From assembly GCA_015472025.1 (NCBI GenBank), contig BNHL01000001.1:3956001-4020000 (forward strand): 64,000 nt of DNA, in the 5' to 3' direction. The position numbers and the translations under genes are program-made. Position 1 is the stretch's first letter; each line of letters starts with the position of its first letter. The stretch comes from Cytophagales bacterium WSM2-2. GTDB taxonomy: Bacteria; Bacteroidota; Bacteroidia; Cytophagales; Cyclobacteriaceae. Of this stretch, positions 5,322 to 23,644 are shown one piece after another. The notes under the pieces are model-generated. The model was not told where the DNA came from, did not search any database, and worked only from the letters and a program-made list of their open reading frames with translations.

Positions 5322-7982
5322 GTGCAGTCGATTCGTTATAAACTAAATCTCACCGCAGTTATTTCATTGCTGGTAGGCGGCTTCTGTGATCTGTATGGGC
5401 AGGATGACTCCGTCAAAACTAAATCCTACAAATCGCGGATTGATTCCACAAAGTCCTATACTACTGCCCACGTTCAGGGTGAACCTCCTAAAATTGATGG
5501 TGTTCTTAATGACCCTGCCTGGGAGCAGGTTCCCTGGGGTGGTGGCACGTTCAGACAACGGGATCCTGATGCAGGTGCCGATCCGTCGGTACAGACTTAT
5601 TTCAAAATTCTGTACGATGCTAAAAATCTCTATGTAGCATTCAGATGTGTTGACCCCGAACCCGATAAAATTGTCGAACGCATGTCGCGAAGAGATGGGT
5701 TTGATGGTGACTGGGTGGAGATCAATATTGATAGTTATGCAGATAAGCGATCGGCTTTTTCTTTCACTTCTTCAGTTTCCGGAGTGAAGGGAGACGAGTA
5801 TGTTTCTAATAATGGCGATAACTGGGATGCCAGTTGGGACCCGATCTGGTACCTCAAGACAAGTATCAACAATGAGGGGTGGGCTGCCGAGTTACGTATC
5901 CCGCTTAGTCAGTTGAGGTTCACAAATAAACCTGAACACACCTGGGGCTTCCAGATTATGCGGAATTTTTTCAGGAATCAGGAGCGTTCTATTTTCCAAT
6001 ACATTCCACCAACAACACCTGGTTATGTGCACTTGTTTGCTGAGTTAAGAGGAGTCAAGGGGATCAAGCCGCAAAAACAATTGGAGATACAACCGTATGT
6101 TGTCACTAAGGCTGAGACTTTTCAAAAAGAAGAAGGCAACCCTTTCATGACTGGCCAGTCTTCCAACGCAACTGTTGGTCTTGATGCTAAGATAGGGATC
6201 ACCAGTGACGTGACTTTAGACCTTACAGTGAACCCGGATTTTGGCCAAGTGGAGGCTGATCCCTCACGGGTTAACCTAACAGCCTTTGAACTTTTTTTCC
6301 AGGAACGAAGGCCTTTCTTCATTGAAGGGAATAACACGTTAAATTATCCACTCACTGATTTCAGTACCAACAATCTCTTTTATTCAAGGCGGATTGGAAG
6401 AAGCCCGCAGGGATCAGTGGAAACAGGTCCGAATGATTTTGTAAACGTCAAGAGTAGGACTACTATTCTTGGAGCGGCTAAGCTCACTGGTAAAAATAAG
6501 AAAGGATTTTCCTGGGGTATACTGGAATCAGTTACAAAACCGGAACAAGCCCAGATCAGTAATCTGGGGGTCTCACGCTATCAAACTGTTGAGCCGATGA
6601 CGAACTATTTTGTGAGCCGGGCCCAGCAGGACATCAACAAAGGCAATACCATTATCGGTGGAATGTTCACGGCTACCAACCGCAAAATAGATAACAAGGA
6701 ATTAGACTGGCTGCGTACTGATGCCTACACCGGCGGACTCGACTTCATTCATAACATGAAGAATCGCAAGTACTATTTAAGTGCGAAAACATTTATGAGT
6801 CATGTGGAAGGAAGCAGGCAAGCTATGCTAGAAACCCAAACGTCTTCTGAACGGTATTTTCAGCGCCCGGATAATCACCATGTCGGGCTGGATTCAACGC
6901 GAAGATCACTAACGGGAACGGGCGGAGCGGTGCTCATTGGAAAGAGGAGTGGAAGGCTTGTTTATGACTTTGGGTTTAGCTGGCTTTCGCCACAACTGGA
7001 GCTCAATGATATCGGGTTCTTATTGCAAACAGACCTCATAAAACAATGGAGCCTTTTACAATATCGGGTGCCAAACCCTGCAGGCATTTTCCGTTCACAG
7101 TATTATAATTTTTATCAATCGCATTTGTGGGATTTTGGGTGGCGAAATCTATCAATGGACCAGGAAGTAAACTGGGAGTGGCAGTTTCAGAATTTGTGGG
7201 GCTTTGGTGGAGGTGTAGCATACAACGAGCACAGTGTTTCAAATGCAGATCTCCGTGGTGGTCCAGCGCTTTTATATCCGGGAAATATTCAAAGCTGGAT
7301 GTGGGCAAGCACTGACCGAAGGAAGAAATTCTACATTAACGTAAGCCCTTCGTGGCTGTGGGGTAATAACAATTATTTGCAAAACACGAATCTTGATGTG
7401 ACCATAACTTATAGACCTACCAATGCACTGAACATTTCTATTGCACCCAGTTACAGTTATAACCGAAATGAGATGCAATATGTAGCTACAGCGGCCGTAG
7501 CTGGCGATCCCCGTTTTTTGGTAGGTGAAATCAACCAGACTACGATCCGGGTAGCGTTGCGCATGACATATATGATCACACCTAATTTATCAATCCAGTA
7601 TTGGGGACAACCTTTCGGAACTTCCGGTGCCTACAGCAACTTTAAATATATTACCGATGCCTCTGCCGCAGAGTATCATAACCGGTATACCACTCTTCCT
7701 ACCAATTCGTTGACACTGAATGACACGAACTACCAAGTGGATGAAAACAATAAGGGAAGTGTTGACTATACTTTCAGCAAGCCTGATTTTAATATTGGCC
7801 AGTTTCGATCCAATATGGTGATGCGTTGGGAATATATCCCCGGCTCCACATTGTTCCTGGTGTGGACGCAGGAAATAAATGGAGCATTTTATGATCGCTC
7901 AAACCCGTTGCAAGCCTTTGATTTTAATCAGCAGGCACACAATGTTTTTGTAATGAAATTCACTTACCGGTTTGTATTGTAG
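5322..7982 (+). CDS. DUF5916 outer-membrane protein with N-terminal CBM9-like domain
   Basis: An 886-residue protein exported to the outer membrane. The start is a GTG; an in-frame TGA 33 nt upstream and the absence of any earlier ATG support it. A signal peptide ends near CDLYGQ. Residues about 45-245 form a CBM9-like beta-sandwich (PPKIDGVLNDPAWEQV, LYVAFRCVDPEP). The remainder is a DUF5916 beta-strand-rich region with the family block SRVNLTAFELFFQERRPFF, ending in an aromatic C-terminus (MKFTYRFVL), as for an outer-membrane barrel. Function is unknown; family members sit among carbohydrate and protein utilisation genes. Downstream is a two-way terminator shared with a convergent gene. Confidence 0.9.
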   Translation: MQSIRYKLNLTAVISLLVGGFCDLYGQDDSVKTKSYKSRIDSTKSYTTAHVQGEPPKIDGVLNDPAWEQVPWGGGTFRQRDPDAGADPSVQTYFKILYDAKNLYVAFRCVDPEPDKIVERMSRRDGFDGDWVEINIDSYADKRSAFSFTSSVSGVKGDEYVSNNGDNWDASWDPIWYLKTSINNEGWAAELRIPLSQLRFTNKPEHTWGFQIMRNFFRNQERSIFQYIPPTTPGYVHLFAELRGVKGIKPQKQLEIQPYVVTKAETFQKEEGNPFMTGQSSNATVGLDAKIGITSDVTLDLTVNPDFGQVEADPSRVNLTAFELFFQERRPFFIEGNNTLNYPLTDFSTNNLFYSRRIGRSPQGSVETGPNDFVNVKSRTTILGAAKLTGKNKKGFSWGILESVTKPEQAQISNLGVSRYQTVEPMTNYFVSRAQQDINKGNTIIGGMFTATNRKIDNKELDWLRTDAYTGGLDFIHNMKNRKYYLSAKTFMSHVEGSRQAMLETQTSSERYFQRPDNHHVGLDSTRRSLTGTGGAVLIGKRSGRLVYDFGFSWLSPQLELNDIGFLLQTDLIKQWSLLQYRVPNPAGIFRSQYYNFYQSHLWDFGWRNLSMDQEVNWEWQFQNLWGFGGGVAYNEHSVSNADLRGGPALLYPGNIQSWMWASTDRRKKFYINVSPSWLWGNNNYLQNTNLDVTITYRPTNALNISIAPSYSYNRNEMQYVATAAVAGDPRFLVGEINQTTIRVALRMTYMITPNLSIQYWGQPFGTSGAYSNFKYITDASAAEYHNRYTTLPTNSLTLNDTNYQVDENNKGSVDYTFSKPDFNIGQFRSNMVMRWEYIPGSTLFLVWTQEINGAFYDRSNPLQAFDFNQQAHNVFVMKFTYRFVL

Positions 7983-8072: not shown

Positions 8073-8615
8073 TTATCGCTGATAATAAAATACCATTGAC
8101 GATTTTTGAATCAAATTTTGATTTAGCATAAACCCGACTAATGCCGGATTAGCATTGGCATCCAGTCCAAGTTTTTCTGTTTTCAAGGCATGAACAGTGA
8201 TCACGTACTTGTGCGGCCCGTGCCCCTCGGGAGGACATGGACCACCATATCCCGTTGTTTTGAAATCGGTGACGCTTTGGATAGCACCTGCCGGAGCTAG
8301 TTTTTGATTGACATTACCTGCTCCGGATTTTAACTCTGCTGCACTGGCCGGGATGTCAAAGATGAGCCAGTGCCACCAACCGCTCCCCGTGGGTGCATTC
8401 TCGTCATGTATTGTAACTGCGAAACTCTTTGTTCCCGCCGGAGCATTCTCCCATGATAGTTGGGGTGAAACATTTTGTCCCGTACATCCGAACCCGTTGA
8501 GGAGCTGTTTACTGGTAGCTTGCCCTCCGATTTCGTTGCTTCGAAGTGTGAATGTTTGCGCAGAAGCAAAACTGAAACTCAGCATGACTGCGATAGTAAT
8601 TAATAGATTTTTCAT
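8073..8615 (-). CDS. YbhB/YbcL-family PEBP-like secreted protein
   Basis: A 180-residue protein with a signal peptide (MKNLLITIAVMLSFSFASAQ). It matches the phosphatidylethanolamine-binding-like family: ENAPAGTKSFAVTIHDENAP, GWWHWLIFDIP, and GYGGPCPPEGHGPHKY. Bacterial members have a small anion-binding pocket but no settled physiological role, and this one is periplasmic or secreted. It lies 46 nt downstream of an AraC regulator on the same strand and may be co-transcribed with it or be its target. Confidence 0.93.
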   Translation of the reverse strand: MKNLLITIAVMLSFSFASAQTFTLRSNEIGGQATSKQLLNGFGCTGQNVSPQLSWENAPAGTKSFAVTIHDENAPTGSGWWHWLIFDIPASAAELKSGAGNVNQKLAPAGAIQSVTDFKTTGYGGPCPPEGHGPHKYVITVHALKTEKLGLDANANPALVGFMLNQNLIQKSSMVFYYQR

Positions 8616-8661
8616 ACGTTTTTCTTTTGTGCAAAAATGAGAAATGATGAAAAAAATAGGC

Positions 8662-9528
8662 TTACGCTACCGGCTCAAATACTTTCGCGATTGGGTCAAG
8701 TTGAAATTGCTTGGGAGAAATACCGAAATGTTTCTTGAACTCCGTACTGAATGCAGAGAGATTTTCGTAACCCAATTGTTCATAAATATCGGAGGGCCGC
8801 TCTCCAGAAATGAGCATACGTTTGGCCCGCTTCATTTTGTAATCCGTAAAGTACTTTTTTGGTGATGTTAGAAACGTCTCGGAAAAATGCCACTTGAAAG
8901 TAGACATACTCATGTTGCACAAGAATGCGATCTCTTCAACGGTAAGATTTTTATCGATGTTATGCTGAACGGTTTGTTTTAACCGTAACATGGGTTGTTG
9001 AGTAATGATGGCCTGGATGAATGCTTTTATTTTTGCAGGATATTGGTAAAGCAGGTACAACAGGAGCTCCTCCAGTTTGATCGATTGAAGAACATTACCT
9101 GGAGATAAACTCTTCAATAGCTCCAAAGAAGATTCGAAGTGATGCAGGAAGCGATCCTTTGAGAGCGCGACAAGCCCGGTAGAACTTGTTTTTGAACTAG
9201 GTTCAATTCCATGTTTCAGGCAAAAATCGCTGAGAAATTGGTCTGAAAAGAATAAGAGAATACTCTTGAACTGGCTTTTTTTAGCCATGCGCTCGGACAT
9301 CAGCATGCTGCCGGAAGGCAACAGGAGTAATTGCTGCTCATCTATAGTAGCGCTGTCATTGGAAGTGTGAACTTGCTTATGACCTTGTTGAAGAAAGCAA
9401 ATTAGGTTCTTTGAAAAGACAACTTTGTTTTTTGTCGTAGGCTTATTGGTCACGTAAAAATGAAAGTAGACATCGGAGGAGGGGTTGTCGTCAAAGGATT
9501 CCGGAAGGCGATAAATTCTTTCTTTCAT
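8662..9528 (-). CDS. AraC-family transcriptional regulator
   Basis: A 288-residue cytoplasmic regulator. The ATG at 9528 is preferred to a TTG at 9561. The N-terminal about 180 residues resemble a cupin-like ligand-sensing domain (CFLQQGHKQVHTS, LLLLPSGSMLMSERM). The C-terminal about 100 residues hold two helix-turn-helix motifs: LTVEEIAFLCNMSMSTFKWHF and PSDIYEQLGYENLSAFSTEF, ending in the typical KKHFGISPKQFQ. The PEBP-like gene follows on the same strand. The ligand is unknown. Confidence 0.9.
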   Translation of the reverse strand: MKERIYRLPESFDDNPSSDVYFHFYVTNKPTTKNKVVFSKNLICFLQQGHKQVHTSNDSATIDEQQLLLLPSGSMLMSERMAKKSQFKSILLFFSDQFLSDFCLKHGIEPSSKTSSTGLVALSKDRFLHHFESSLELLKSLSPGNVLQSIKLEELLLYLLYQYPAKIKAFIQAIITQQPMLRLKQTVQHNIDKNLTVEEIAFLCNMSMSTFKWHFSETFLTSPKKYFTDYKMKRAKRMLISGERPSDIYEQLGYENLSAFSTEFKKHFGISPKQFQLDPIAKVFEPVA

Positions 9529-9648
9529 TCGATTAGCAAAGATAGGAAACGTCCTGCTCAAAGATATTTGTTGTCAGGCCTATCCCTATTTGTGGTATGG
9601 ATTCTGGCTCAATTTTTAGCACTCGTGTTGCAAAGTCAATTTCAACAT

Positions 9649-9684
9649 GGGGAAATTCCCGTGTTGGATACGGGGATTTCCCCG
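9649..9684. promoter_or_regulatory. Pair of GGGGA-type palindromes, candidate operator or attenuator
   Basis: Two related dyads lie in the 292-bp gap between the AraC gene (minus strand) and the gene at 9821 (plus strand): GGGGAAATTCCC at 9649-9660 and CGGGGATTTCCCCG at 9671-9684. Their repeat-to-repeat distance is about two helical turns. CCCGT and ACGGG between them could form a competing stem. A third partial copy (AAATTCCCG) follows near 9698. They could be operators for a dimeric regulator or a folded leader; the sequence does not decide. Confidence 0.4.
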
Positions 9685-9820
9685 TGCATCTTCAAGAAAA
9701 TTCCCGCCCACTTGCACATGATGCCAACAGGACTATGTTTGCGAAAGATTAAAGTCGACTCAATGGCTTAAAAGCTAAAAAGACTTATCATTTTATTTTA
9801 ACCAACCAAATTAATTTTCT

Positions 9821-10186
9821 ATGGCACGTGAGTTGAAACCAACGGATGGCGCACCAATCGCTAAAAATCTGGCAGATCAGTGGATGAAGAATTACCAGCA
9901 TGAACATCCTGAAAAGGACAGGATTAATGCACATTTTTTTGGCAGAGACATTATCGAACGCATTCTTGCTCAGGACAAATGCATTGGTATTCGCATTTAC
10001 TATGGGCTGGATGATAAGCAGCAAAAGCAATTGCTCCTGGTTGGTGCCTGCGCTGATGGAAGCAATATCTGGCCAAAAACTGTGAATGCTAATATAATCG
10101 CACTGACCGATGATGATGGTGGAGTTATTGGAGATGCTTCAATGCCGTGCCCTCCGTATTGTCCTCCAGAAGTCACGCAGAACTAA
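9821..10186 (+). CDS. Small orphan protein with Cys/Pro-rich C-terminus
   Basis: A 121-residue soluble protein that I do not recognise. It has no signal peptide or membrane segment. The central part (IGIRIYYGLDDKQQKQLLLVGACADGSN) looks like an alternating strand/helix fold, and the end carries the unusual segment MPCPPYCPPEVTQN with two Cys flanked by prolines. The next gene starts 25 nt later on the same strand, so the two are probably one transcript. Two GGGGA palindromes lie 137-172 nt upstream. No function can be assigned. Confidence 0.72.
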   Translation: MARELKPTDGAPIAKNLADQWMKNYQHEHPEKDRINAHFFGRDIIERILAQDKCIGIRIYYGLDDKQQKQLLLVGACADGSNIWPKTVNANIIALTDDDGGVIGDASMPCPPYCPPEVTQN

Positions 10187-10211
10187 CCGCTCGCTATAAC
10201 GGTCGGTTAGG

Positions 10212-10874
10212 ATGGACTTCAAAACCTTTGACCTCATTGCTATTTCGTCTGCATTGTCGGTAACGATTCCATTGTTCTCGTTTTTCCTGTCATTGGGGTC
10301 GAAAAGGGCAACTTATGCCGTGAAATTGCTGGGCGCTTTGCTCATCAGTTCGGGCCTTTCGGATTTACTGAGTCGTCTATTCTATAATTTGAAGCTGAAT
10401 CCTAACCCCGTCATCAGCGTTTACATCATTTCGCAGTTTGCACTGGTGAGTTTAATCTATCACGATTCATTCCGCAAAAAAATATACAAACGCGTCATAA
10501 TTGGTGGGGTGAATGTCTTCATTGTCTTTGCTACTGTCAATATGCTTTTTGTGCAAGGCCTGAGCGGGTTCAACTCCAATATATTCACAGCTTCCAGTGT
10601 TGTGTTTGTAATCTATGCCTTTGTATTTTTTCATCAACTACTGGCTGATGTTCAGGAAATTAAGCTTGAGTTCATGTTCATATTCTGGTTTAATTGCGCT
10701 GTGATTATGTATTTTGGTGCCAGCATCTTTATCTTCTCCACCATATCTTTCCTGATCACAACAGCTAATGACCAGGCACTTTTGTCATGGACATTCCATA
10801 ATATTTTTAACATCATTAAGAATCTGATCCTTGCGTGGGCACTTTACATCTCCTGGAAACACGTACGAAAGTGA
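10212..10874 (+). CDS. Multi-pass membrane protein, unknown
   Basis: A 220-residue protein with about seven predicted hydrophobic segments spread over its length (for example near residues 9-27, 35-52, 74-91, 97-118, 128-150, 155-180 and 198-215) and a short basic tail (WKHVRK). Nothing resembles a known transporter or enzyme motif. It follows the orphan protein at 9821 by 25 nt and is followed by a hairpin, so these two genes form a small operon. Function unknown. Confidence 0.75.
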   Translation: MDFKTFDLIAISSALSVTIPLFSFFLSLGSKRATYAVKLLGALLISSGLSDLLSRLFYNLKLNPNPVISVYIISQFALVSLIYHDSFRKKIYKRVIIGGVNVFIVFATVNMLFVQGLSGFNSNIFTASSVVFVIYAFVFFHQLLADVQEIKLEFMFIFWFNCAVIMYFGASIFIFSTISFLITTANDQALLSWTFHNIFNIIKNLILAWALYISWKHVRK

Positions 10875-11207
10875 ACCTGTCTTATATTCCCTGATAAAAA
10901 ATTAAACCCGATTACTGATCGGGTTTAATAAACCTAAAATCAAGCAAGAACAAGAATAAAAACGTTGCAAACGTAAAGCCTTGTTTTAAAGTGAATGAAA
11001 AAACGATGATATGTTATCGTTATCAAAATCACTTTGATTTAAGGAAAGGTTAAAAGAAGGCTTCTGAGCTGTAAATATCCCTCTGCGCAACAATTGTCGC
11101 ATGTCTGTATCAAAAATACCTTTGCTTGAATCACAATTACAATGAATAGCTAGTGTGTGAAGGTAGGTTTACAGAAATTTTAATCACACACAAAACAATT
11201 AAAAAAG
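10875..11207. other. Intergenic region, 333 bp
   Basis: Contains the hairpin at 10903-10927 and otherwise AT-rich sequence leading to the Tat-signal gene at 11208. There is a near-palindrome (AACGTTGCAAACGT) near 10962-10975. I see no RNA gene or open frame of interest. Confidence 0.5.
10903..10927 (+). terminator. Hairpin after the 9821-10874 gene pair
   Basis: TAAACCCGAT and ATCGGGTTTA form a perfect 10-bp stem with a 5-nt loop (TACTG) 29 nt after the stop at 10874. The following T-run is weak, so this is a likely but not textbook terminator. Confidence 0.6.
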
Positions 11208-11903
11208 ATGAGCGACAAGAAAAAACAAACCCGGAGAAATTTCATTGGCACGTTAGCAGTTTCCGGGGCGGCAGGTCTGTCTTTAATCTCAAATCCGTTG
11301 AAAGCGAACTTTTTGACAAGTGACGAAAAAGCCACCTCATTCGCTGATCCGGAAATAGCCGCAGATGCAGAATCGTGGCTGAAAACCTTGCAAGGCAAAA
11401 AATTCCCTGTGGTGTATGACATGCACGAACACAAGGATTTCTGGGCAGGAATCTGGAGTAACATTTACTTTATGACGAATGCCGGTGTAAGCGACATCGG
11501 TGTTGCGGTAGTCATGCGTCATGGCGGATTTCCGTTTGCACTGAATGACTCCATGTGGTCAAAATACAAACTCGGTGAGTTCTTTAAAGTCAATGATAAA
11601 AATACCGGAGCACCAACGGTACGCAACATGTATTGGGAACCAACCGGTAAGGATTATCCATTGCCGGGACTTGACGGCATTAAAGCCCTTCAGCAAAAAG
11701 GAGTTGGTTTTTGCGTATGCAATATGGCATTGAAAGTTTACAGTGGCGTTATAGCGGGAGCTAACGGGCTGACAGCAGATGCGGTGTACAACGACTTCGT
11801 AGCGAATATTCTCCCAGGCGTTCAAACTGTTCCGTCTGGTGTTTGGGCACTTGGACGTTTTCAACAGGCGCCTTTGAGTTACGGATACATTAACGCAGGG
11901 TAG
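11208..11903 (+). CDS. Tat-exported DsrE-like protein
   Basis: A 231-residue protein with a twin-arginine signal (TRRNFIGTLAVSGAAGLSLI), which predicts export of a folded protein to the periplasm. The mature part (VVYDMHEHKDFWAGIWSNIYF, VAVVMRHGGFPFALND, LQQKGVGFCVCNMAL, and a C-terminal GVWALGRFQQAPLSYGYINAG-like end) resembles the DsrE/DsrF-like fold, with a Cys pair at FCVCN. Members of that superfamily handle sulfur or act as small redox proteins; a role here is only inferred. The gene is monocistronic, with a strong terminator just after. Confidence 0.75.
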   Translation: MSDKKKQTRRNFIGTLAVSGAAGLSLISNPLKANFLTSDEKATSFADPEIAADAESWLKTLQGKKFPVVYDMHEHKDFWAGIWSNIYFMTNAGVSDIGVAVVMRHGGFPFALNDSMWSKYKLGEFFKVNDKNTGAPTVRNMYWEPTGKDYPLPGLDGIKALQQKGVGFCVCNMALKVYSGVIAGANGLTADAVYNDFVANILPGVQTVPSGVWALGRFQQAPLSYGYINAG

Positions 11904-11930
11904 AAGTAGCCTATATCTGTAAAGGTGATC

Positions 11931-11958
11931 AGGCCTCTCGTTATGGGAGGCCTTTTTT
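11931..11958 (+). terminator. Rho-independent terminator
   Basis: AGGCCTC and GAGGCCT form a 7-bp stem followed by a T-run (CCTTTTTTG), 28 nt after the stop of the Tat-signal gene. Confidence 0.85.
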
Positions 11959-12024
11959 GTAGTATATACTTTTTATATACCAGAGATACACTTCGTATTA
12001 TCCCGCATGCAAATTCGTTTGCGG

Positions 12025-12032
12025 TACCTTTG
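12025..12032 (+). promoter_or_regulatory. Probable Bacteroidota -7 element before the thioesterase gene
   Basis: TACCTTTG matches the TAnnTTTG -7 consensus of this phylum and lies 24 nt before the ATG at 12057. A convincing -33 TTTG at the expected distance is not obvious. Confidence 0.4.
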
Positions 12033-12056
12033 CCGTTCTAATTCATCAGAATAAAT

Positions 12057-12467
12057 ATGACTGATATGGTCGAAACCTACCGTGGTACTGTCTATCCGTG
12101 GCATTGTGATTTCAACGGTCACATGAATGTGATGTATTATGCAGGAAAATTTGACGAGGCCACCTGGCATTTCCTTTCCCAAAAAGGCATTACCCGGGTT
12201 TACCTGAGCGAGCATAACCGCGGCATGGTGGCTGCTGAGCAGAACATGAAGTATTATAAAGAAGTGTTTGCCGGTGATCTTGTGTTCGTGCGAACAGAAC
12301 TGCTGGAACTAAAACCGAAAGCGATTATTTTTCGTCACCTGATGTTCAATGCAGAAACAAATGAACTTGTTGCAGAGGGGAGAATGGTAGGAATTCATCT
12401 CGATATGAAATCCCGGAAAGCGGTACCGTTTCCTGACTCACTGTTAGCACAACTGACTCAGCCTTAG
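12057..12467 (+). CDS. Hotdog-fold acyl-CoA thioesterase (4HBT family)
   Basis: A 136-residue cytoplasmic protein. The diagnostic segment WHCDFNGHMNVMYYAGKFDEATW corresponds to the 4-hydroxybenzoyl-CoA-thioesterase-like active site, with the Asp and the HMN loop. These enzymes hydrolyse acyl-CoA thioesters; the acyl chain is not predictable. The start may be Met1 or Met4 (12066). Its last 4 nt overlap the end of a convergent lipoprotein gene. Confidence 0.9.
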   Translation: MTDMVETYRGTVYPWHCDFNGHMNVMYYAGKFDEATWHFLSQKGITRVYLSEHNRGMVAAEQNMKYYKEVFAGDLVFVRTELLELKPKAIIFRHLMFNAETNELVAEGRMVGIHLDMKSRKAVPFPDSLLAQLTQP

Positions 12468-12910
12468 TTTGACTTGACTGGTCTTAATGCTTCCGCGCAT
12501 TCATAAATGTCACTGAATCTTCGCCTGTTGATTACTGAACGGCTCGCGCTTTCCTCCAGTTCTATTGAATGCTTTTTGAATTGAATTCGTATGAAACTGG
12601 TTCCTTTGTCATGCACGATCGAATGCTTCCGCATATGGATCCCTTCAGGATGTGAACTCTTGATTACCCGGGCAAGGTTGTCCAATTGTGCTTGAGTTGG
12701 TTTGAAATGCGTGATTTCCTCCTGTCCCATGCGTTTCAATTTGTAAGTGGCACTGTCGCCATGTATGCGGAGTTCCCACGATTCGGGAGTATGTCCACAG
12801 CATTTACCAATAGTGAGATCCAAATCGCTATTCCACTTGTCCGGCCATGGGATGCAGGAAACAGCAACAACGGAGAGAAGAATGATGATGCAGCGCTGAA
12901 AAATTCTCAC
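12464..12910 (-). CDS. Small lipoprotein, unknown
   Basis: A 148-residue protein with a lipoprotein signal (IIILLSVVAVSC, cleavage before the Cys). The start is a GTG at 12910; an in-frame stop lies directly upstream and there is no ATG alternative. The mature part includes a Cys pair (IGKCCGHTP) and a C-terminal region rich in basic residues. It converges on, and overlaps by 4 nt, the thioesterase gene. Function unknown. Confidence 0.72.
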   Translation of the reverse strand: MRIFQRCIIILLSVVAVSCIPWPDKWNSDLDLTIGKCCGHTPESWELRIHGDSATYKLKRMGQEEITHFKPTQAQLDNLARVIKSSHPEGIHMRKHSIVHDKGTSFIRIQFKKHSIELEESASRSVINRRRFSDIYECAEALRPVKSN

Positions 12911-12929
12911 AACTTATGAATGATAAAGA

Positions 12930-13142
12930 TTAAAGTTTTCCGTTGCTTTTCACCTGGCTTATAACCAAATCCAACAGGCGGTCGCGCTTCGTTACCCAAT
13001 CGGAAATCTTAGCGCGAAGAACCTCGTATGTCTTCTTATCCCTTTCATCAATTTGGCTCTGCTCCATTTTAGTGACAGCCGCTCTGGCATTTTCGATTTT
13101 GATGTCGAGTGATTCAATTTCCGTTTTAATGAAATCTTTCAC
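12930..13142 (-). CDS. Small coiled-coil protein
   Basis: A 70-residue charged protein, mostly predicted helix and coiled coil (IESLDIKIENARAAVTKMEQ). The start would be a GTG at 13142; no ATG is available upstream before a stop. It lies between two lipoprotein genes on the same strand, 28 nt after the gene at 13171-13680, which is consistent with an operon. No family recognised; moderate doubt that it is a gene. Confidence 0.5.
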   Translation of the reverse strand: MKDFIKTEIESLDIKIENARAAVTKMEQSQIDERDKKTYEVLRAKISDWVTKRDRLLDLVISQVKSNGKL

Positions 13143-13170
13143 AATGCCGTTCTGTGATTCAATTCAATGG

Positions 13171-13680
13171 TCAATCTCCGTCTGTTGACTCTTTCCAATA
13201 GTACTTGGGAGCAAGCTTCTTCGTATCAAACGAAATGAACCCATCAATAGCATCATCATCTTTTAGTTCGAAGACTTTGAATTTAAAAATGATCTCACTG
13301 CCAGAAGCGCTAAGCAATGGCATGGTGACCTGGTAAGCATCGATCGCCACAATCTTCCCGGGATATCCCCAACTGTCGCGAGTTACCGAATCGGAGAGCA
13401 GCATTTTTTTATTGCTGTCGGCAATGGTCACAATGCACTTATAAGTTGGTCGGCTTAAAGTGTCACCCTTGGCGGTAGCCTGTTCTGTGAGATCGAACTG
13501 TTTGACGTTAACCTTGAATTTCTGGCCATCGATTGTAAATGTGGAGTCGATTTCTGCATACAAAGAAGATTCCTGATCTGCAGTTTGCACCGTGTCTGAA
13601 GTTGACTCGTCTTTGTTTTTACTTGAGTTACAAGAAAAGAGTGAGGCAGTTACCCAAAAAATTAGAGCGATTTTTTTCAT
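13171..13680 (-). CDS. Lipoprotein, unknown (DUF4738-like guess)
   Basis: A 169-residue protein with a lipobox (FWVTASLFSC). The ATG at 13680 begins a normal signal peptide. After a Ser/Asp-rich spacer it has alternating strands (IDSTFTIDGQKFKVNVKQFDL, KCIVTIADSNKKMLL), probably a beta-sandwich, and ends in YYWKESTDGD. It looks like a small Bacteroidota lipoprotein of the DUF4738 kind, but I am not certain of the family. It heads a minus-strand group with the two small genes downstream. Confidence 0.8.
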   Translation of the reverse strand: MKKIALIFWVTASLFSCNSSKNKDESTSDTVQTADQESSLYAEIDSTFTIDGQKFKVNVKQFDLTEQATAKGDTLSRPTYKCIVTIADSNKKMLLSDSVTRDSWGYPGKIVAIDAYQVTMPLLSASGSEIIFKFKVFELKDDDAIDGFISFDTKKLAPKYYWKESTDGD

Positions 13681-13951
13681 CAATAATGGATTTGAAATAG
13701 CGTTTCAAATTTACATCCTTAGGCATTCATTTCTTTGGCACTTTTGATGCAAATGATAAAAATCCCGTCTGTTTAAAACTTAATCACTAATCAAACGGCA
13801 CGATCACAGCATTCAATACTCTCGAATGCTATCCCTTCTTCACGTTTTAATATAAAAATCTTGAAGTAGCATAACACGTATATGGCATTCTGTTCGCTTT
13901 TCTGCAACCAATTTTTTAGATTAAATTGGTGCCATAACCGAACCCGTTTAG

Positions 13952-14623
13952 ATGAAAAACCTGAAAGACCTCTTCATCAAGTCGGATGATGAAGAAGAGG
14001 CAAAAACCCTACAAAAAACCGAAAAACCCAGCTTTCCGATCAACGAGCCTGTTTCTAAGCCTTCCTTTGAGACAAACAAGTCAAATAACCCGTATTTGGC
14101 CGAAATCATTGAGATTTATGAAAAAGGGCTGGAGAGCATCAACATGCCCGGCTACGATTTTTATGATTTCTATGTAGCAGTAAAAGCTGCCGGTGCACAT
14201 AATGAGACCGTCTATAAGATGGCTTTCCAAATGGGTAAAACTTTGGACTCCGGTATTACTTCGCAAAAGCTTGCCGTAGATGCCGAGTACTACATCAGTA
14301 AAATAAATGAAGTGTACCAGAAGTATGCTGATCAGGGAAGGCAAAAGATCGATGCCTTGGCCAGTCAGCAACGCAATGAAAGCTCGACACTGTCAAGTGA
14401 AGTATCCCAGATCGAATCAGAGATCAACAAGCTGAAGCAGCAAATACAAACCCTCGACAGAAAATTGTCGGAGACCAAAGCGACCTTGTCAAAAGTGGAC
14501 GAAAAGTATAAGCCTCAGCAGGAGGTAGTACAACAAAAACTGGTAGCCAACGATCAGGCCATGCAAATGAGCGTGCAAAAGATAAACACGATCAAAGACG
14601 GCATCGGCACTTTTCTGAAATAA
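13952..14623 (+). CDS. Coiled-coil cytoplasmic protein, first gene of ABC/OmpA operon
   Basis: A 223-residue protein without signal or membrane segments. An acidic, Ser/Pro-rich N-terminus (about 1-50) is followed by a small helical domain (IYEKGLESINMPGYDFYDFY, about 55-110) and a long coiled coil (about 115-205: SQIESEINKLKQQIQTLDRK). I do not recognise the family. It begins a tight plus-strand operon (gap 24 nt to the next gene) with a membrane coiled-coil protein and an ABC importer. A cytoplasmic scaffold or regulator of that complex is inferred only from position. Confidence 0.82.
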   Translation: MKNLKDLFIKSDDEEEAKTLQKTEKPSFPINEPVSKPSFETNKSNNPYLAEIIEIYEKGLESINMPGYDFYDFYVAVKAAGAHNETVYKMAFQMGKTLDSGITSQKLAVDAEYYISKINEVYQKYADQGRQKIDALASQQRNESSTLSSEVSQIESEINKLKQQIQTLDRKLSETKATLSKVDEKYKPQQEVVQQKLVANDQAMQMSVQKINTIKDGIGTFLK

Positions 14624-14647
14624 GACAAACACCCTTAATTATAAACT

Positions 14648-15766
14648 ATGAGTAATCTTCCCACGGAAACTCCTAAGGTATTAGAGTTGCCGATTCTCAA
14701 GCATTTTGAGAAATCTGAAATATCACTTAACCCGCAGAACTGGCGCAAAGGCGAAAAAGGTATCGCTGGTGTGCTTGGGCTCGCATTGCTTGCCGTGGCA
14801 GGATGGGGAATATTTACGTACGTTCTTCCGGTAGTTCTCACCATGGTGGGAAAAGTTCTGGGGGCTATTCTCTCGGCTGTGCTGGTGATTGGATTTTTCG
14901 TGATGCTGCCGGTGATTATTAAGGCACTGAAAAAGCTCGCACGCCTCTTTCATAAAATGCTTATCAGGTATGATCCTTTCGGTGAATTGGAGGAACAGAA
15001 AAACCGCATGGTTCAGAACCGTCAGCATTTTAAGGATGCGAAGGCGAAGATCCGGTCTATCAAAACTACCATGGAAGGGGAATCTGCCAAATCAGAAAAG
15101 GAAGCGGAAGAATACCAGCAGAAAGTGGTGCTTCTTCAGGAACGTGCTGCTAAAATGAAAGCTAAGATTACACAGCTTGATCAAACTAAAGGTGAAGCTG
15201 CAAAAGAAACAGACGAGTATGTGGATTTGCAAACAGAGCTGATGAAGACCTTGTCAGATGCCCAACGTACCAGTCACCTGCTGAATCAAAGCACCGGGTT
15301 GGTAAGAAAATATGGGACACGCGCGCACGTAATCGGTAAACTCGATCGCAAACTGAATGTTGTGGCTACTGCCATCGACATTAAGATAGCCGACTTCGAA
15401 GTGTCAATCGATATGCTGAAGAAAGAAAGCGCCTTTGCTCAAGCCGCTCGCAATGCAACAGAACAGGCGAAGTCTGCGATGTTGTTTACGAAAGGATGGG
15501 AGCTTGACTACGCATTAGATGTGGTGACTTCCACGATCGCCATGGATCTGGCTACGACTCGCGAAAACCTGCTTGACATTGACTCACTCACCAGTCAGTA
15601 TTCATTGGATAGCGATGAACTTTATTCCAAGCTTGAAAAACTGGCGGATCAGATTAAAACCGATACGTACGATGTTCCTGAAGCGAAAAAGTACGCGAAT
15701 CCGAATTACAAGCTCAGCGAGCAAGACAAAACCGAGACTCAGGGTTTCGGTGATATTTTCAAATAA
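14648..15766 (+). CDS. Membrane-anchored coiled-coil protein of ABC/OmpA operon
   Basis: A 372-residue protein. Two close transmembrane segments (about residues 38-60 and 66-88) leave a long C-terminal part, probably cytoplasmic. That part has a coiled coil (about 115-190: SEKEAEEYQQKVVLLQERAAKMK) and a helical domain (KGWELDYALDVVTSTIAMDLATT), and ends GFGDIFK. The helical part loosely recalls PspA/IM30-type proteins, but no signature allows assignment. Gaps are 24 nt upstream and 33 nt downstream within the operon. I infer an inner-membrane partner of the ABC transporter. Confidence 0.84.
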   Translation: MSNLPTETPKVLELPILKHFEKSEISLNPQNWRKGEKGIAGVLGLALLAVAGWGIFTYVLPVVLTMVGKVLGAILSAVLVIGFFVMLPVIIKALKKLARLFHKMLIRYDPFGELEEQKNRMVQNRQHFKDAKAKIRSIKTTMEGESAKSEKEAEEYQQKVVLLQERAAKMKAKITQLDQTKGEAAKETDEYVDLQTELMKTLSDAQRTSHLLNQSTGLVRKYGTRAHVIGKLDRKLNVVATAIDIKIADFEVSIDMLKKESAFAQAARNATEQAKSAMLFTKGWELDYALDVVTSTIAMDLATTRENLLDIDSLTSQYSLDSDELYSKLEKLADQIKTDTYDVPEAKKYANPNYKLSEQDKTETQGFGDIFK

Positions 15767-15799
15767 AACAGTAACAAACCTAAATTAACTTCAATCAAT

Positions 15800-17593
15800 A
15801 TGTGGTCTAAACTTACATTCTTTGCCAAAGCGATAATCGTTATTGTCGTAGCGGGTGCTATCGGGGCAGCGGTCTATTATTTGTCTCCGGGATTGCGCGT
15901 GGGCGAGTCGAAACAAATGCAGGGACTCGAGGTAACAGACAAGGATGTTAACAATATGAGTAGCACGAAAGAGCTGCCGCTCCCCAGTGGTGATATTTCC
16001 TCGGATGTTTCAAGTAAGCCTTTGGCACGCATTGGTGCCTATGCATGGAATGCACAGTCAGGTATCATCGTGGCCAATGGTGGTCCTCGTACGACCAAAG
16101 GTTCACTAATGGAGAGAAACGGTGTGAACCTTGAAATAATTCGTCAGGACTGGTTGTCTGAATTGAGAAATCTTCACCTCAAATTCATTGAGGAATTGGA
16201 TCGCGGTAATGCCAATCCTCAGGAAGGAGTTTTTGCTGTGATGATCATGGGTGATGGCGCTCCGTATTATATCAGTTCAGTACAACAAGCGCTTGACGAC
16301 AAGTTTGGCGCAAACAAATACAATCTCCAGGTAGTGGGTGCAGTTGGTCTGAGTTATGGTGAGGACAAACTGATCGGCCCTCCAAGCTGGAAACTTGAAC
16401 CACAATCAATGAAGGGTGCTTTGATTTCTTCAGTAATCGGTGATGGCGACTGGGTAACAGCAGTGAACTACGCTTCTATCAACGGAGTGAAAGTAAATCC
16501 TGATCCTTCTACTTACGATCCTGAGGCTATTAACTTTCTCCCCTCTGCCAATGATGACTATATAGAGTCTGCAAAAGAATTGATAAAGTCTCAGAAGGCA
16601 GGATGGACAGTGCCATTGAAAGAGGTGAAGAACGGAGAACTGACAGGTAAGACTATTAATAAAAAAGTGGACGGCTGTACTACATGGACGCCTGGTGACA
16701 AAATGGTATTCGATGAACTTTCAGGTTATACCGATATCATCTCTACCAAAGAATTCAACAACCAGATGGCGACTACAATCATTGCTGTAAAGCAGTGGGC
16801 TGAAAAGAACCCTGACCTGATTACGAATATTCTTCGTTCTGCATTCATTGCTTCTGATCAAGTGAAGCAGTTTGAAAATTGGAAACACAAAGCTTCCGAG
16901 TGTGTGAGCAAGACCTACAATCTTGAGACTGCCGAATATTGGTACAATATGTTCAAAGGTCAGAAAGGTGAGAAGAATGGCATTACCTACAACATGGGTG
17001 GATCGCGTGTATTCAACTTTGCGGATGCTAATCAGTACTACGGAATTACAGACGGTGTCAACCGTTACAAAGCGGTATACGATCAGGTGTCACGTTATTT
17101 GAAAGACCTTGACCCAGCCGGATTTAATGAAAACGTAAAACGTGTCGTTCCTTACGAGGAAGCGGTTAACCTCTCTTTTATGAAGAGCATTACCGACATC
17201 GCTTCCGGGGAGGCATATGCAGCCGATTATTCCAAGAAGGCAACGACTGTGTTGGCCTCAGGTGAGTGGCACATTACTTTCGAAACTGGAAGAGCCGTGT
17301 TGAGACCGGAAGCCAAAGACGTTGTAGAACAGATTTATAACCTATTGATTGAGGCAGAAAATTCAAAATTGGAACTCATTGGCCATACAGATAACACTGG
17401 AACGCGCGATGGAAACTATTCACTTTCATTAGCACGAGCAGAAGCAGTAAAAACTTATCTCATGCAGAAAGGAATTCCCGGCACACGTTTCCAGAAAGTA
17501 GATGGAAAAGGGCAGGATGACCCGGTAGGAGATAATAAAACCGATGCCGGAAGAGCACGCAACCGGAGGGTAGTGGTAACACTGCTCAAATAA
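15800..17593 (+). CDS. ABC substrate-binding domain fused to OmpA peptidoglycan-binding domain
   Basis: A 597-residue protein: N-terminal anchor (about 9-30, AKAIIVIVVAGAIGAAVYYL), a periplasmic solute-binding-like domain (about 50-460, with IGAYAWNAQSGIIVANGG and GDWVTAVNYASINGVKVN), then a full OmpA-like domain (about 480-597). The last has ELIGHTDNTGTRDGNYSLSL and DAGRARNRRVVV, including the Asp and Arg residues that bind diaminopimelate. The same operon encodes the permease and ATPase. A binding protein tethered both to the inner membrane and to peptidoglycan is unusual. The substrate is unknown; the transporter resembles the NitT/TauT class. Confidence 0.9.
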   Translation: MWSKLTFFAKAIIVIVVAGAIGAAVYYLSPGLRVGESKQMQGLEVTDKDVNNMSSTKELPLPSGDISSDVSSKPLARIGAYAWNAQSGIIVANGGPRTTKGSLMERNGVNLEIIRQDWLSELRNLHLKFIEELDRGNANPQEGVFAVMIMGDGAPYYISSVQQALDDKFGANKYNLQVVGAVGLSYGEDKLIGPPSWKLEPQSMKGALISSVIGDGDWVTAVNYASINGVKVNPDPSTYDPEAINFLPSANDDYIESAKELIKSQKAGWTVPLKEVKNGELTGKTINKKVDGCTTWTPGDKMVFDELSGYTDIISTKEFNNQMATTIIAVKQWAEKNPDLITNILRSAFIASDQVKQFENWKHKASECVSKTYNLETAEYWYNMFKGQKGEKNGITYNMGGSRVFNFADANQYYGITDGVNRYKAVYDQVSRYLKDLDPAGFNENVKRVVPYEEAVNLSFMKSITDIASGEAYAADYSKKATTVLASGEWHITFETGRAVLRPEAKDVVEQIYNLLIEAENSKLELIGHTDNTGTRDGNYSLSLARAEAVKTYLMQKGIPGTRFQKVDGKGQDDPVGDNKTDAGRARNRRVVVTLLK

Positions 17594-17606
17594 AATTTTT
17601 CAAGCC

Positions 17607-18386
17607 ATGAATTTCAAGGCGTGGATCAGACCATTTGAGTCTCTCACTAAGAGAGACTCATTTGCTATAAAAGCCATTTGGCTTTTGTTGATCATCGGGT
17701 ATTGGTTTATTGTTACCTCGGGATCAAAGAAACTTTTCCCCTCACCGGAGCAGGTGTGGCATGGATTTGTTTCCTTGTATGAAGAAGGATTGGTAGTACA
17801 TATTGGAAGCTCCTTGTGGTTGTGCTTGCAGGCTACAGTGATTTCTATCGTGGTATCATTGCTCATCGCTTACTCTTACCCGATCCCGTTGCTGCAGCCG
17901 ATCTCCAAAACCATGACCCGGCTGCGCTATCTTCCGTTGACGGGTATTACGTTTTACCTTACCATTCTCGTTACCAATGCCAGGACAATGCAGGTGTGGG
18001 TATTGGTTATCTTCATGAGCTTGTATTTCATCACTTCGCTATTAGCTGTGATCAAAGATGTATCACAGGAAGAGATCGATCACGCCCGCTCTTTGAAATG
18101 CAACCGCTGGGAAATTCTCTGGGAAGTGATAACCAAAGGAAGGTTTGACTACGTCATAGATGTGTTGCGTCAAAACCTGGCTATCACTTGGATGATGTTG
18201 GTAACTGTAGAGTCAATTCTTGTAGCAGCGGGTGGACTTGGTGTGCTGATCAAGAACAGCGATAAGTTCATGAACCACGGTCGCATCCTTGCGCTACAAA
18301 TTGTGATACTCCTGGTGGGATTGGGGATAGACTTCACTCTCAATGCCGTGAGAAAAACATTGTTCCGTTATTCCAAATTCAATTGA
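17607..18386 (+). CDS. ABC transporter permease (NitT/TauT/SsuC-like)
   Basis: A 259-residue inner-membrane protein with about six hydrophobic segments. The cytoplasmic coupling loop is present in a diverged form: EEIDHARSLKCNRWEILWEV in place of EAAxxxGAS. Start ATG is 13 nt after the binding-protein gene and the stop is 2 nt before the ATPase ATG, so translation is coupled. Length and order fit the taurine/nitrate/sulfonate importer group. The altered loop suggests a specialised ATPase partner. Confidence 0.9.
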   Translation: MNFKAWIRPFESLTKRDSFAIKAIWLLLIIGYWFIVTSGSKKLFPSPEQVWHGFVSLYEEGLVVHIGSSLWLCLQATVISIVVSLLIAYSYPIPLLQPISKTMTRLRYLPLTGITFYLTILVTNARTMQVWVLVIFMSLYFITSLLAVIKDVSQEEIDHARSLKCNRWEILWEVITKGRFDYVIDVLRQNLAITWMMLVTVESILVAAGGLGVLIKNSDKFMNHGRILALQIVILLVGLGIDFTLNAVRKTLFRYSKFN

Positions 18387-18388
18387 AC

Positions 18389-19234
18389 ATGGCTGCATAC
18401 GAACAAAAAGATATTATCCTTCATGTAGAAAATCTGAGTATTGCCTATGGCGAACAGGTAATCATTAAGGACGTTAACCTGATGGAGCGCAACGTCACCC
18501 GGACGGATGTGGTTCAGGGGCAGATCATTGCGGTACTAGGCCGTTCAGGACGCGGAAAATCAACATTGTTTAAGGCGTTGACCGGACTTGTTCCACCCAC
18601 TACGGGACGCGTTCTGATTCCTGATTATTCACAGCAGCCGACCAACGGCACACAGCCTGCAAAACATGTTACGGAAGGCGATGTTGGGTTTGTAGATCAG
18701 AAGTACACGCTCTTCCGTCATAAGACAGTGCTTGATGCAGCAATGTACGCACTCAGAAACGCTGATTTGAAGACACAAGAGAAGCATGATAGAGTCATGA
18801 GCTATCTCACAGACTGGGGACTCGAAAAAGTGAAGAGCCAATACCCGAACGAATTGTCGGGAGGGCAGAAGCAGCGAGTGGCGATCATTGAACAGCTTTT
18901 ATCTTCAGGACACTACATCGTTTTGGATGAACCATTCTCCGGTCTCGATGTGGGCAATATTTACAATGTGAAGAAAGCCTTCAAATTGATTGAAAACAGC
19001 CACGAACTGAATACGATTATTTTCAGCACACATGACATTGAACTGGCTGCTGAGTTGGCTGACTCTATTTATGTCATGGGCTACCCGAAAAAAGAGGATG
19101 GATCATTGACATCCACCGGCACAATTATCAAGCATTTTGATTTGAAAGCCATGGGCATTGCCTGGCAGAATGAGTTCACTTCGAGTCACCTTGATGTGGT
19201 CAGGGAGATTAAGTCAGTGATGATGAACAGTTGA
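18389..19234 (+). CDS. ABC transporter ATP-binding protein (NitT/TauT type)
   Basis: A 281-residue ATPase, the last gene of the operon. Motifs are complete: Walker A GRSGRGKST (51-59), Q-loop Q104, signature LSGGQ (156-160), Walker B HYIVLDE (175-181), H-loop His215 in FSTHDIE. The ATG at 18389 is used; an in-frame TTG 6 nt earlier is less likely. It should energise the permease at 17607. An insertion between Walker A and the Q-loop (about 75-97, PDYSQQPTNGTQPAKHVTEG) is longer than usual for SsuB/TauB-type proteins. Confidence 0.93.
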   Translation: MAAYEQKDIILHVENLSIAYGEQVIIKDVNLMERNVTRTDVVQGQIIAVLGRSGRGKSTLFKALTGLVPPTTGRVLIPDYSQQPTNGTQPAKHVTEGDVGFVDQKYTLFRHKTVLDAAMYALRNADLKTQEKHDRVMSYLTDWGLEKVKSQYPNELSGGQKQRVAIIEQLLSSGHYIVLDEPFSGLDVGNIYNVKKAFKLIENSHELNTIIFSTHDIELAAELADSIYVMGYPKKEDGSLTSTGTIIKHFDLKAMGIAWQNEFTSSHLDVVREIKSVMMNS

Positions 19235-23312: not shown

Positions 23313-23427
<115 letters not shown>

Positions 23428-23435
23428 AAAATTTA

Positions 23436-23509
23436 GGTCCGGTAGCTCAACTGGATAGAGCATCAGATTTCTAATCTGACGGTTCGGGGTTCGATTCCCT
23501 GCCGGATCA
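23436..23509 (+). tRNA. tRNA-Arg (anticodon UCU)
   Basis: Acceptor GGTCCGG pairs with CCGGATC (one G-U pair). Anticodon stem TCAGA/TCTGA holds loop TTTCTAA with anticodon TCT, reading AGA. The D arm GCTC...GAGC and T loop TTCGATT are intact. No CCA is encoded after discriminator A at 23509. Confidence 0.97.
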
Positions 23510-23567
23510 CGAAAAATAAGTTGGAGGTAGAGAATCTTTTTATACCTTCGCGCCTCCAAAGAAAGTT

Positions 23568-23641
23568 CGGGGTGTAGCGTAGCCCGGTATCGCGCTTGGT
23601 TTGGGACCAAGAGATCGTCAGTTCGAATCTGGCCACCCCGA
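23568..23641 (+). tRNA. tRNA-Pro (anticodon UGG)
   Basis: Acceptor CGGGGTG pairs with CACCCCG. The anticodon stem CTTGG/CCAAG holds loop TTTGGGA with anticodon TGG. The T loop is GTTCGAATC. No CCA is encoded after discriminator A at 23641. A terminator hairpin follows 3 nt later. Confidence 0.97.
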
Positions 23642-23644
23642 CAA

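Follow-up and report, generated by a model that had tools for sequence, protein, structure and literature searches.

The five-gene operon and its products

The window studied here is a 64,000-nucleotide stretch of the genome of Cytophagales bacterium WSM2-2 (contig BNHL01000001.1, positions 3,956,001 to 4,020,000), and it carries on its plus strand, at 13952-19234, an operon of five genes, A-B-C-D-E, with intergenic gaps of 24, 33, 13 and 2 nt (Table 1). Coordinates, gaps and domain searches all bear out the composition that an earlier note, made from the sequence alone, had given for it, namely two coiled-coil proteins, a binding protein fused to an OmpA domain, a permease and an ATP-binding cassette (ABC) ATPase. 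We compared it with 80 bacterial loci, the best 80 of 239 relatives of the C binding domain (one genome per species scanned), and with 61 viral loci on records of up to 462 kb. The five genes form a real unit, whose order is kept in both bacteria and viruses.

Table 1. Positions of the operon genes and their features in the window
Feature	Position	Strand	Description
Gene A	13952..14623	+	223 aa, no membrane helix; coiled coil preceded by a conserved helical segment (GYDFYxFYxA...)
Gene B	14648..15766	+	372 aa, N-terminal pair of membrane helices and a long helical hairpin (~residues 109-280)
Gene C	15800..17593	+	membrane-anchored substrate-binding protein fused to peptidoglycan-binding OmpA domain
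C N-terminal helix, residues 7-28	15818..15883	+	read as membrane anchor
C TauA/SsuA-like binding domain, ~residues 72-462	16013..17185	+	
C OmpA-like domain, residues 484-596	17249..17587	+	invariant D531, R546
Gene D	17607..18386	+	259-aa TauC-like permease
D diverged EAA (coupling) loop	18067..18139	+	placed by eye
Gene E	18389..19234	+	281-aa ABC ATPase, intact catalytic motifs, short insertion before Walker A
E Walker A GRSGRGKST	18539..18565	+	from the sequence

The binding domain of C has the fold of the sulfonate/taurine binders, an identification made by structure comparison alone, with no sequence relatives in the PDB at E-values up to 1. Its nearest structural chain is bound to 2-aminoethylphosphonate, and CmpA/NrtA are among the nearest folds. 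Across 43 proteins 29 of its residues are invariant, and 20 of them fall on a strand end or directly after one, as against 32% of all positions (binomial p 5e-5), a clustering that fits a conserved binding cleft. The region of the N-terminal helix has no cysteine for a lipobox. At the other end of the protein, the OmpA domain is not missing from the orthologues, as the earlier note had allowed it might be: PF00691 was recovered in 16/16 C proteins scanned, and the motif pattern of its Asp/Arg pair, the residues that bind diaminopimelate, is found in 78/80 bacterial and 55/61 viral copies. The permease D, a homologue of which occurs in 79/80 bacterial loci, is closest to TauC (1e-16, below the cut-off of that model), scores 22.2 bits against a cut-off of 26.4 with the Pfam permease model and has a diverged EAA loop. 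All four ATPase motif patterns are matched in 72/78 bacterial and 49/55 viral E proteins, that of the window being complete. PHROGs has families for D and E, and A, B and C received no informative assignment there. A homologue of A was found by profile search at the expected place in 69/80 bacterial and 54/61 viral loci, and B, which has a conserved GGFGDxF in its C-terminal tail, is present in 60/61 viral loci, the remaining one being cut at the start of C.

The combination of a TauA/SsuA-like binding domain with a catalytically complete ATPase is that of a TauT/NitT-class importer. The operon shares with TauABC and SsuABC the fold of the binding domain and the superfamilies of permease and ATPase, and differs from them in the tethering of its binding protein to membrane and peptidoglycan, its two coiled-coil partners and its diverged permease. 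In the cyanobacterial CmpABCD/NrtABCD, likewise ABC systems, a domain resembling a binding protein has also taken on a second role; in these the extra domain is on an ATPase subunit (chain titles), whereas the fusion in the window is to OmpA. Both the binding domain of C and the ATPase E look functional, and the earlier note's contrast of this system with nutrient uptake is thus not borne out. The main rival to the envelope complex that we favor below is, in fact, a tethered importer, in which C, held at the wall, would serve with D and E to import a solute resembling a sulfonate, taurine or a phosphonate, and A and B would be an accessory scaffold; in phages the operon would then be an auxiliary metabolic transporter. 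This is consistent with the TauA-like fold and its 2-aminoethylphosphonate-bound neighbor, the proximity of D to TauC, the intact motifs of E and the occurrence of C without adjacent A-B in 10/80 bacterial loci. Nevertheless, we consider it rather unlikely, given the sub-cut-off Pfam score and diverged EAA loop of D and the presence of B in 60/61 and of A in 54/61 viral loci; moreover, it is unusual for uptake systems to have their binding protein tethered at once to the membrane and the wall.

Carriage by huge phages

A relative of C occurs in a single entry, LR756500.1 (462 kb), of the 50,697 annotated phage records searched, and there the whole of A-B-C-D-E is kept in order; a scan of 2.9 million IMG/VR contigs recovered a further 60 contigs with a C relative. 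By profiles, the complete A-B-C-D-E is present in 49/61 viral loci, while the other 12 comprise eight truncated by contig ends and four that show B-C-D-E with no detectable A. A match to phrog_2, which we take to be the terminase large subunit, was found in 14/20 viral records tested, and Pfam Terminase_6N scored above its cut-off in 4/4 proteins checked. The terminase-positive records include 11 with all five genes and three without detectable A; the six negative ones are those of L145, L146, L158, L185, L189 and L191. Ribosomal protein L14, present in 14/14 control genomes, was detected in 0/30 viral records. Around the operon we counted 550 transfer RNA (tRNA) genes across the 61 viral loci, with at least three in 41 of them, versus none across the 80 bacterial loci; a deeper viral clade (see below) mostly has none. 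The presence of a terminase, the lack of L14 and the richness in tRNAs together indicate that most of the viral records are phages. Three may instead be bacterial, namely L145 and L146, which have neither a terminase match nor a tRNA, and L188, which lacks tRNAs and groups with sequences from bacteria. By appearance, L166/L183, L193/L199 and L158/L159 are near-duplicates.

A cluster of Ser-Arg-Pro tRNAs also lies at 23313-23642 of the window, ~4 kb downstream of the chromosomal operon; the proximity of tRNAs to both this operon and many phage copies may be a coincidence.

The viral carriage of the operon is a new finding. We found no report of phages carrying A-B-C-D-E in the open-access literature searched; the portions covered of PMC7162821 contain no mention of it, and in those of PMC13212656 only the 'Pspac' promoter matched, with nothing on the operon in phages. 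A parallel is offered by the Jug phages, which are also huge phages of Bacteroidota with a PspA-like, stress-related gene, in this case a pspA-like gene next to terD (PMC12363816, as far as covered); the main text of that preprint has no occurrence of 'ABC transporter' or 'OmpA'.

Conservation and distribution in bacteria

The records of 77/80 bacterial loci have Bacteroidota-type titles; the other three are contigs of metagenome-assembled genomes titled Thermoanaerobaculia, Leptospirales and Limnohabitans, which are perhaps mis-binned. All five genes follow in order on one strand in 68/80 bacterial loci, which, with the viral loci, answers the earlier note's question whether the five occur together in the same order in other genomes. 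The remaining 12 comprise ten with C-D-E only, one with A-B-C-D (L132, cut after D) and one with C only (L067, its contig cut after C); the contig of L117 breaks off where C begins. That note would have counted it as a refutation if the coiled-coil genes were not conserved beside the ABC genes in other genomes; they are so conserved in most loci, the exceptions being ten bacterial ones, most of them Saprospiraceae by title, where adjacent A and B are absent despite available upstream sequence (~9 kb in L063, L064, L066, L070, L076, L082, L092 and L099; 3.2-3.5 kb in L065 and L067).

B relatives are located elsewhere in 9/10 genomes with C-D-E-only loci, and an A homologue adjoins B in 4/4 such remote regions inspected (L242, L243, L244 and L245; E 1.4e-20 to 9.8e-26). 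Paired A and B homologues remote from C-D-E were noted in L242, L243, L244 and L058. As the A+B pair can stand apart from C-D-E, it may have a function of its own. One of these genomes (G482, Saprospiraceae), which also has C-D-E, features a second, paralogous type of operon (L245:8083-14505) with A', B' and C'. Here, C' combines a plain NMT1 (1.2e-11) with an OmpA domain (2.9e-18) and is followed, after one other gene, by a less diverged permease; no ATPase was seen within the stretch 8083-14505.

Compared with a copy from the same genus (L048), the ratio of nonsynonymous to synonymous differences (pN/pS) is ~0.12-0.15 for B, C and D, 0.21 for E and 0.33 for A, with synonymous sites saturated; A-E are under purifying selection. 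At the same time, C is patchy, being present in 8/395 genomes of the phylum, that of the window included, and in 2/35 genomes of the same genus, in one of them on a truncated contig. None of six genes flanking the operon in the window recurs beside other copies at 1e-10 (L048 onward), the one exception being an FtsX-like gene with a 32% match in L077. A search of 72,556 plasmid records at E 1e-5 gave no match.

Such patchiness would fit a bacterial anti-phage defense system, which the earlier note had offered as one reading and which we hold to be very improbable, there being little in its favor beyond this distribution. In 26-28 of 83 loci surveyed (see below) the upstream neighbors are ATP-synthase genes (labels by eye), phages themselves carry the full module, and we found no positive evidence for defense. 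No specific PADLOC model covers the proteins, and the partial matches, including ZorB (6.8e-9, OmpA domain) and mad3 (1.2e-25 over ~120 residues of E), are generic ones explained by coiled coils, OmpA and the ABC ATPase.

Evolutionary relationships of phage and bacterial copies

In a tree of 148 C proteins, with C' as outgroup and the best 80 of the 239 relatives on the bacterial side, the main bacterial clade (82 sequences including that of the window, with the doubtful viral L145 and L146) nests within viral branches. Moving outward from it, 14 viral loci form its sister group (support 1.0 for the joint clade), followed by 31 viral loci (0.90) and L180 (0.99), whereas a deeper clade mixes 13 viral with four bacterial loci. 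At least six changes of label are needed on the tree, and an earlier midpoint-rooted tree agrees with it. This topology suggests repeated transfer between phages and bacteria, with the wider diversity probably held by phages, and falls short of proof because only the best 80 of the bacterial relatives were included and the outgroup branch is long (3.1). The B proteins of the window clade and the divergent clade are a single family (Prob 100, E 6.7e-40).

Additional partners and relationship to PspA-type operons

We surveyed ~9 kb on each side in 83 loci, i.e., the 80 bacterial ones together with the phage locus L139, L049 and L055. Nearby in 51 of these lies an AAA+ ATPase of ~500 residues that has an AAA_lid_6 domain (domains from two examples); in 17 there is a hydrophobic protein of ~166 residues, which also has a relative next to a lone B in G045 (L054; 27% over 135 residues, 2e-12). 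The operon of the window has no AAA+ gene beside it; the nearest relative in this genome, with 47% over the AAA part, lies at a distance of ~1.5 Mb. In 15 viral records no convincing AAA+ partner was recovered.

As a type, the gene set is not without precedent, the operon of the window being of the same kind as the set described by Ravi et al. 2024 (mSystems, PMC11237479), who, in the portion of their paper covered here, briefly report operons of PspA/TM-Snf7, AAA+, ABC ATPase, permease and PBPB-OmpA proteins (e.g., OGG56892.1) and propose a role for them in ATP-dependent membrane remodeling. Both share genes for coiled-coil/TM-Snf7-like proteins, the ABC ATPase, the permease and the solute-binding protein with OmpA. 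They differ in that the AAA+ gene of the Ravi operons is not beside that of the window and in that the kinship of B to PspA/Snf7 is unproven. In the main text of PMC11237479 the words 'phages', 'bacteriophage' and 'viruses' do not occur. To this type of operon the present data add gene order, the class of the binding protein and distribution.

The evidence that B is itself PspA/ESCRT-III-like is mixed, and the kinship is unproven. PspA_IM30 (PF04012) matches 3/37 B-family proteins (best 2.5e-7), one member of the 37, the lone B-like gene L056, scoring 0.0037; in a separate genome search it matched the B of G047 at 9.5e-8, below gathering. The top three Foldseek matches of B are VIPP1, at E 0.1-0.15, and in VIA-align VIPP1 is tied with unrelated coiled coils. 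Comparison by hhalign of B with nine PspA proteins of relatives was not significant, and neither was that of A. A weak match of A to B was dismissed as generic coiled coil. The genome of the window also has an ordinary PspA gene (G000:C1:4179699-4180343, E=1e-30), ~200 kb from the operon.

Functional interpretation

We propose, at about even confidence, that A-E form an envelope-spanning, ATP-driven complex that stabilizes or remodels the envelope, with C sensing a ligand, D2E2 performing the hydrolysis and A and B serving as scaffold. Gene content and order, the domains, the intact motifs of E, purifying selection and carriage by phages are observed; that the proteins form a complex, the class of ligand, the coupling, the scaffold and the part played in infection are inferred. 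The facts most telling for its interpretation are the phage copies and the frequent AAA+ neighbor. The N-terminal helix would anchor C in the inner membrane and the OmpA domain would hold it to the peptidoglycan, an arrangement that agrees with the earlier note's idea of a wall-anchored ABC complex. Tethered at both ends, it would allow the TauA-like domain to sample its ligand, predicted to be small and probably anionic, at a fixed position between membrane and wall. Ligand-bound C may dock on the D2E2 ABC core and thereby control ATP hydrolysis. On the cytoplasmic face, the membrane-anchored helical hairpin of B and the coiled coil of A would constitute a scaffold, the assembly or position of which could be set by the ATPase cycle, comparable to phage-shock (PspA) membrane maintenance. 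In bacteria such a complex would stabilize or remodel the envelope under stress, whereas in huge phages it would serve, during infection, to preserve the envelope of the host or to control it. Among the functions put forward by the earlier note, envelope sensing and remodeling is the best-supported one and matches the suggestion of Ravi et al. 2024 (PMC11237479).

Carriage by huge phages, with three or more tRNA genes alongside in 41/61 viral loci, and the envelope location would also suit a phage device for superinfection exclusion or counter-defense, which would block the entry of rival phage DNA or shield the host membrane from membrane-damaging abortive infection. Set against this, neither PADLOC nor PHROGs yielded a sequence link to a known exclusion or defense protein, and the gene clusters shared between loci include no phage-like gene that turns up repeatedly next to the bacterial copies; we regard such a function as improbable. 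Returning to the envelope complex, we tentatively suggest, while holding it to be more doubtful than the complex itself, that the operon is a dedicated machine of huge Bacteroidota phages for control of the host envelope, often placed amid tRNA arrays and made up of a full ABC/OmpA complex from membrane to wall with a PspA/ESCRT-III-like scaffold, which bacteria, that of the window among them, have acquired from such phages several times and kept for envelope stress. It is an open question how, in the course of infection, huge phages manage to keep their host cell intact and productive; phage-shock systems are usually seen as a host response. As an operon with one gene order in scattered Bacteroidota and in dozens of contigs of huge phages, A-E present a defined candidate for an envelope function encoded by phages, open to test, besides being a case of gene flow between the two.

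Variation in operon structure and context

Several copies depart from the compact arrangement of the window. In L138 (5017-15917) unrelated open reading frames (ORFs) are inserted at all three junctions from B through E, and in L049 (G047) D and E are separated by an ORF of the other strand (7301-7795) that is presumably REP-associated-transposase-like. On the 416 kb viral contig of L211 (9747-15804), the operon is adjoined by genes for a protein kinase (just under the cut-off) and a PP2C phosphatase, a pair that we take to be reminiscent of TerY-type stress modules, and by isochorismatase-like and 8-oxoguanine glycosylase genes. The stretch taken as gene A has an internal stop codon in L158, L159, L164 and L178, reflecting either a wrong choice of start or a real break. 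Finally, in the near-identical viral contigs of L214 (G463:C1:131000-134000) and G466, the match to the terminase large subunit is split, with internal stop codons, a pattern that an intron or a change of frame would give.

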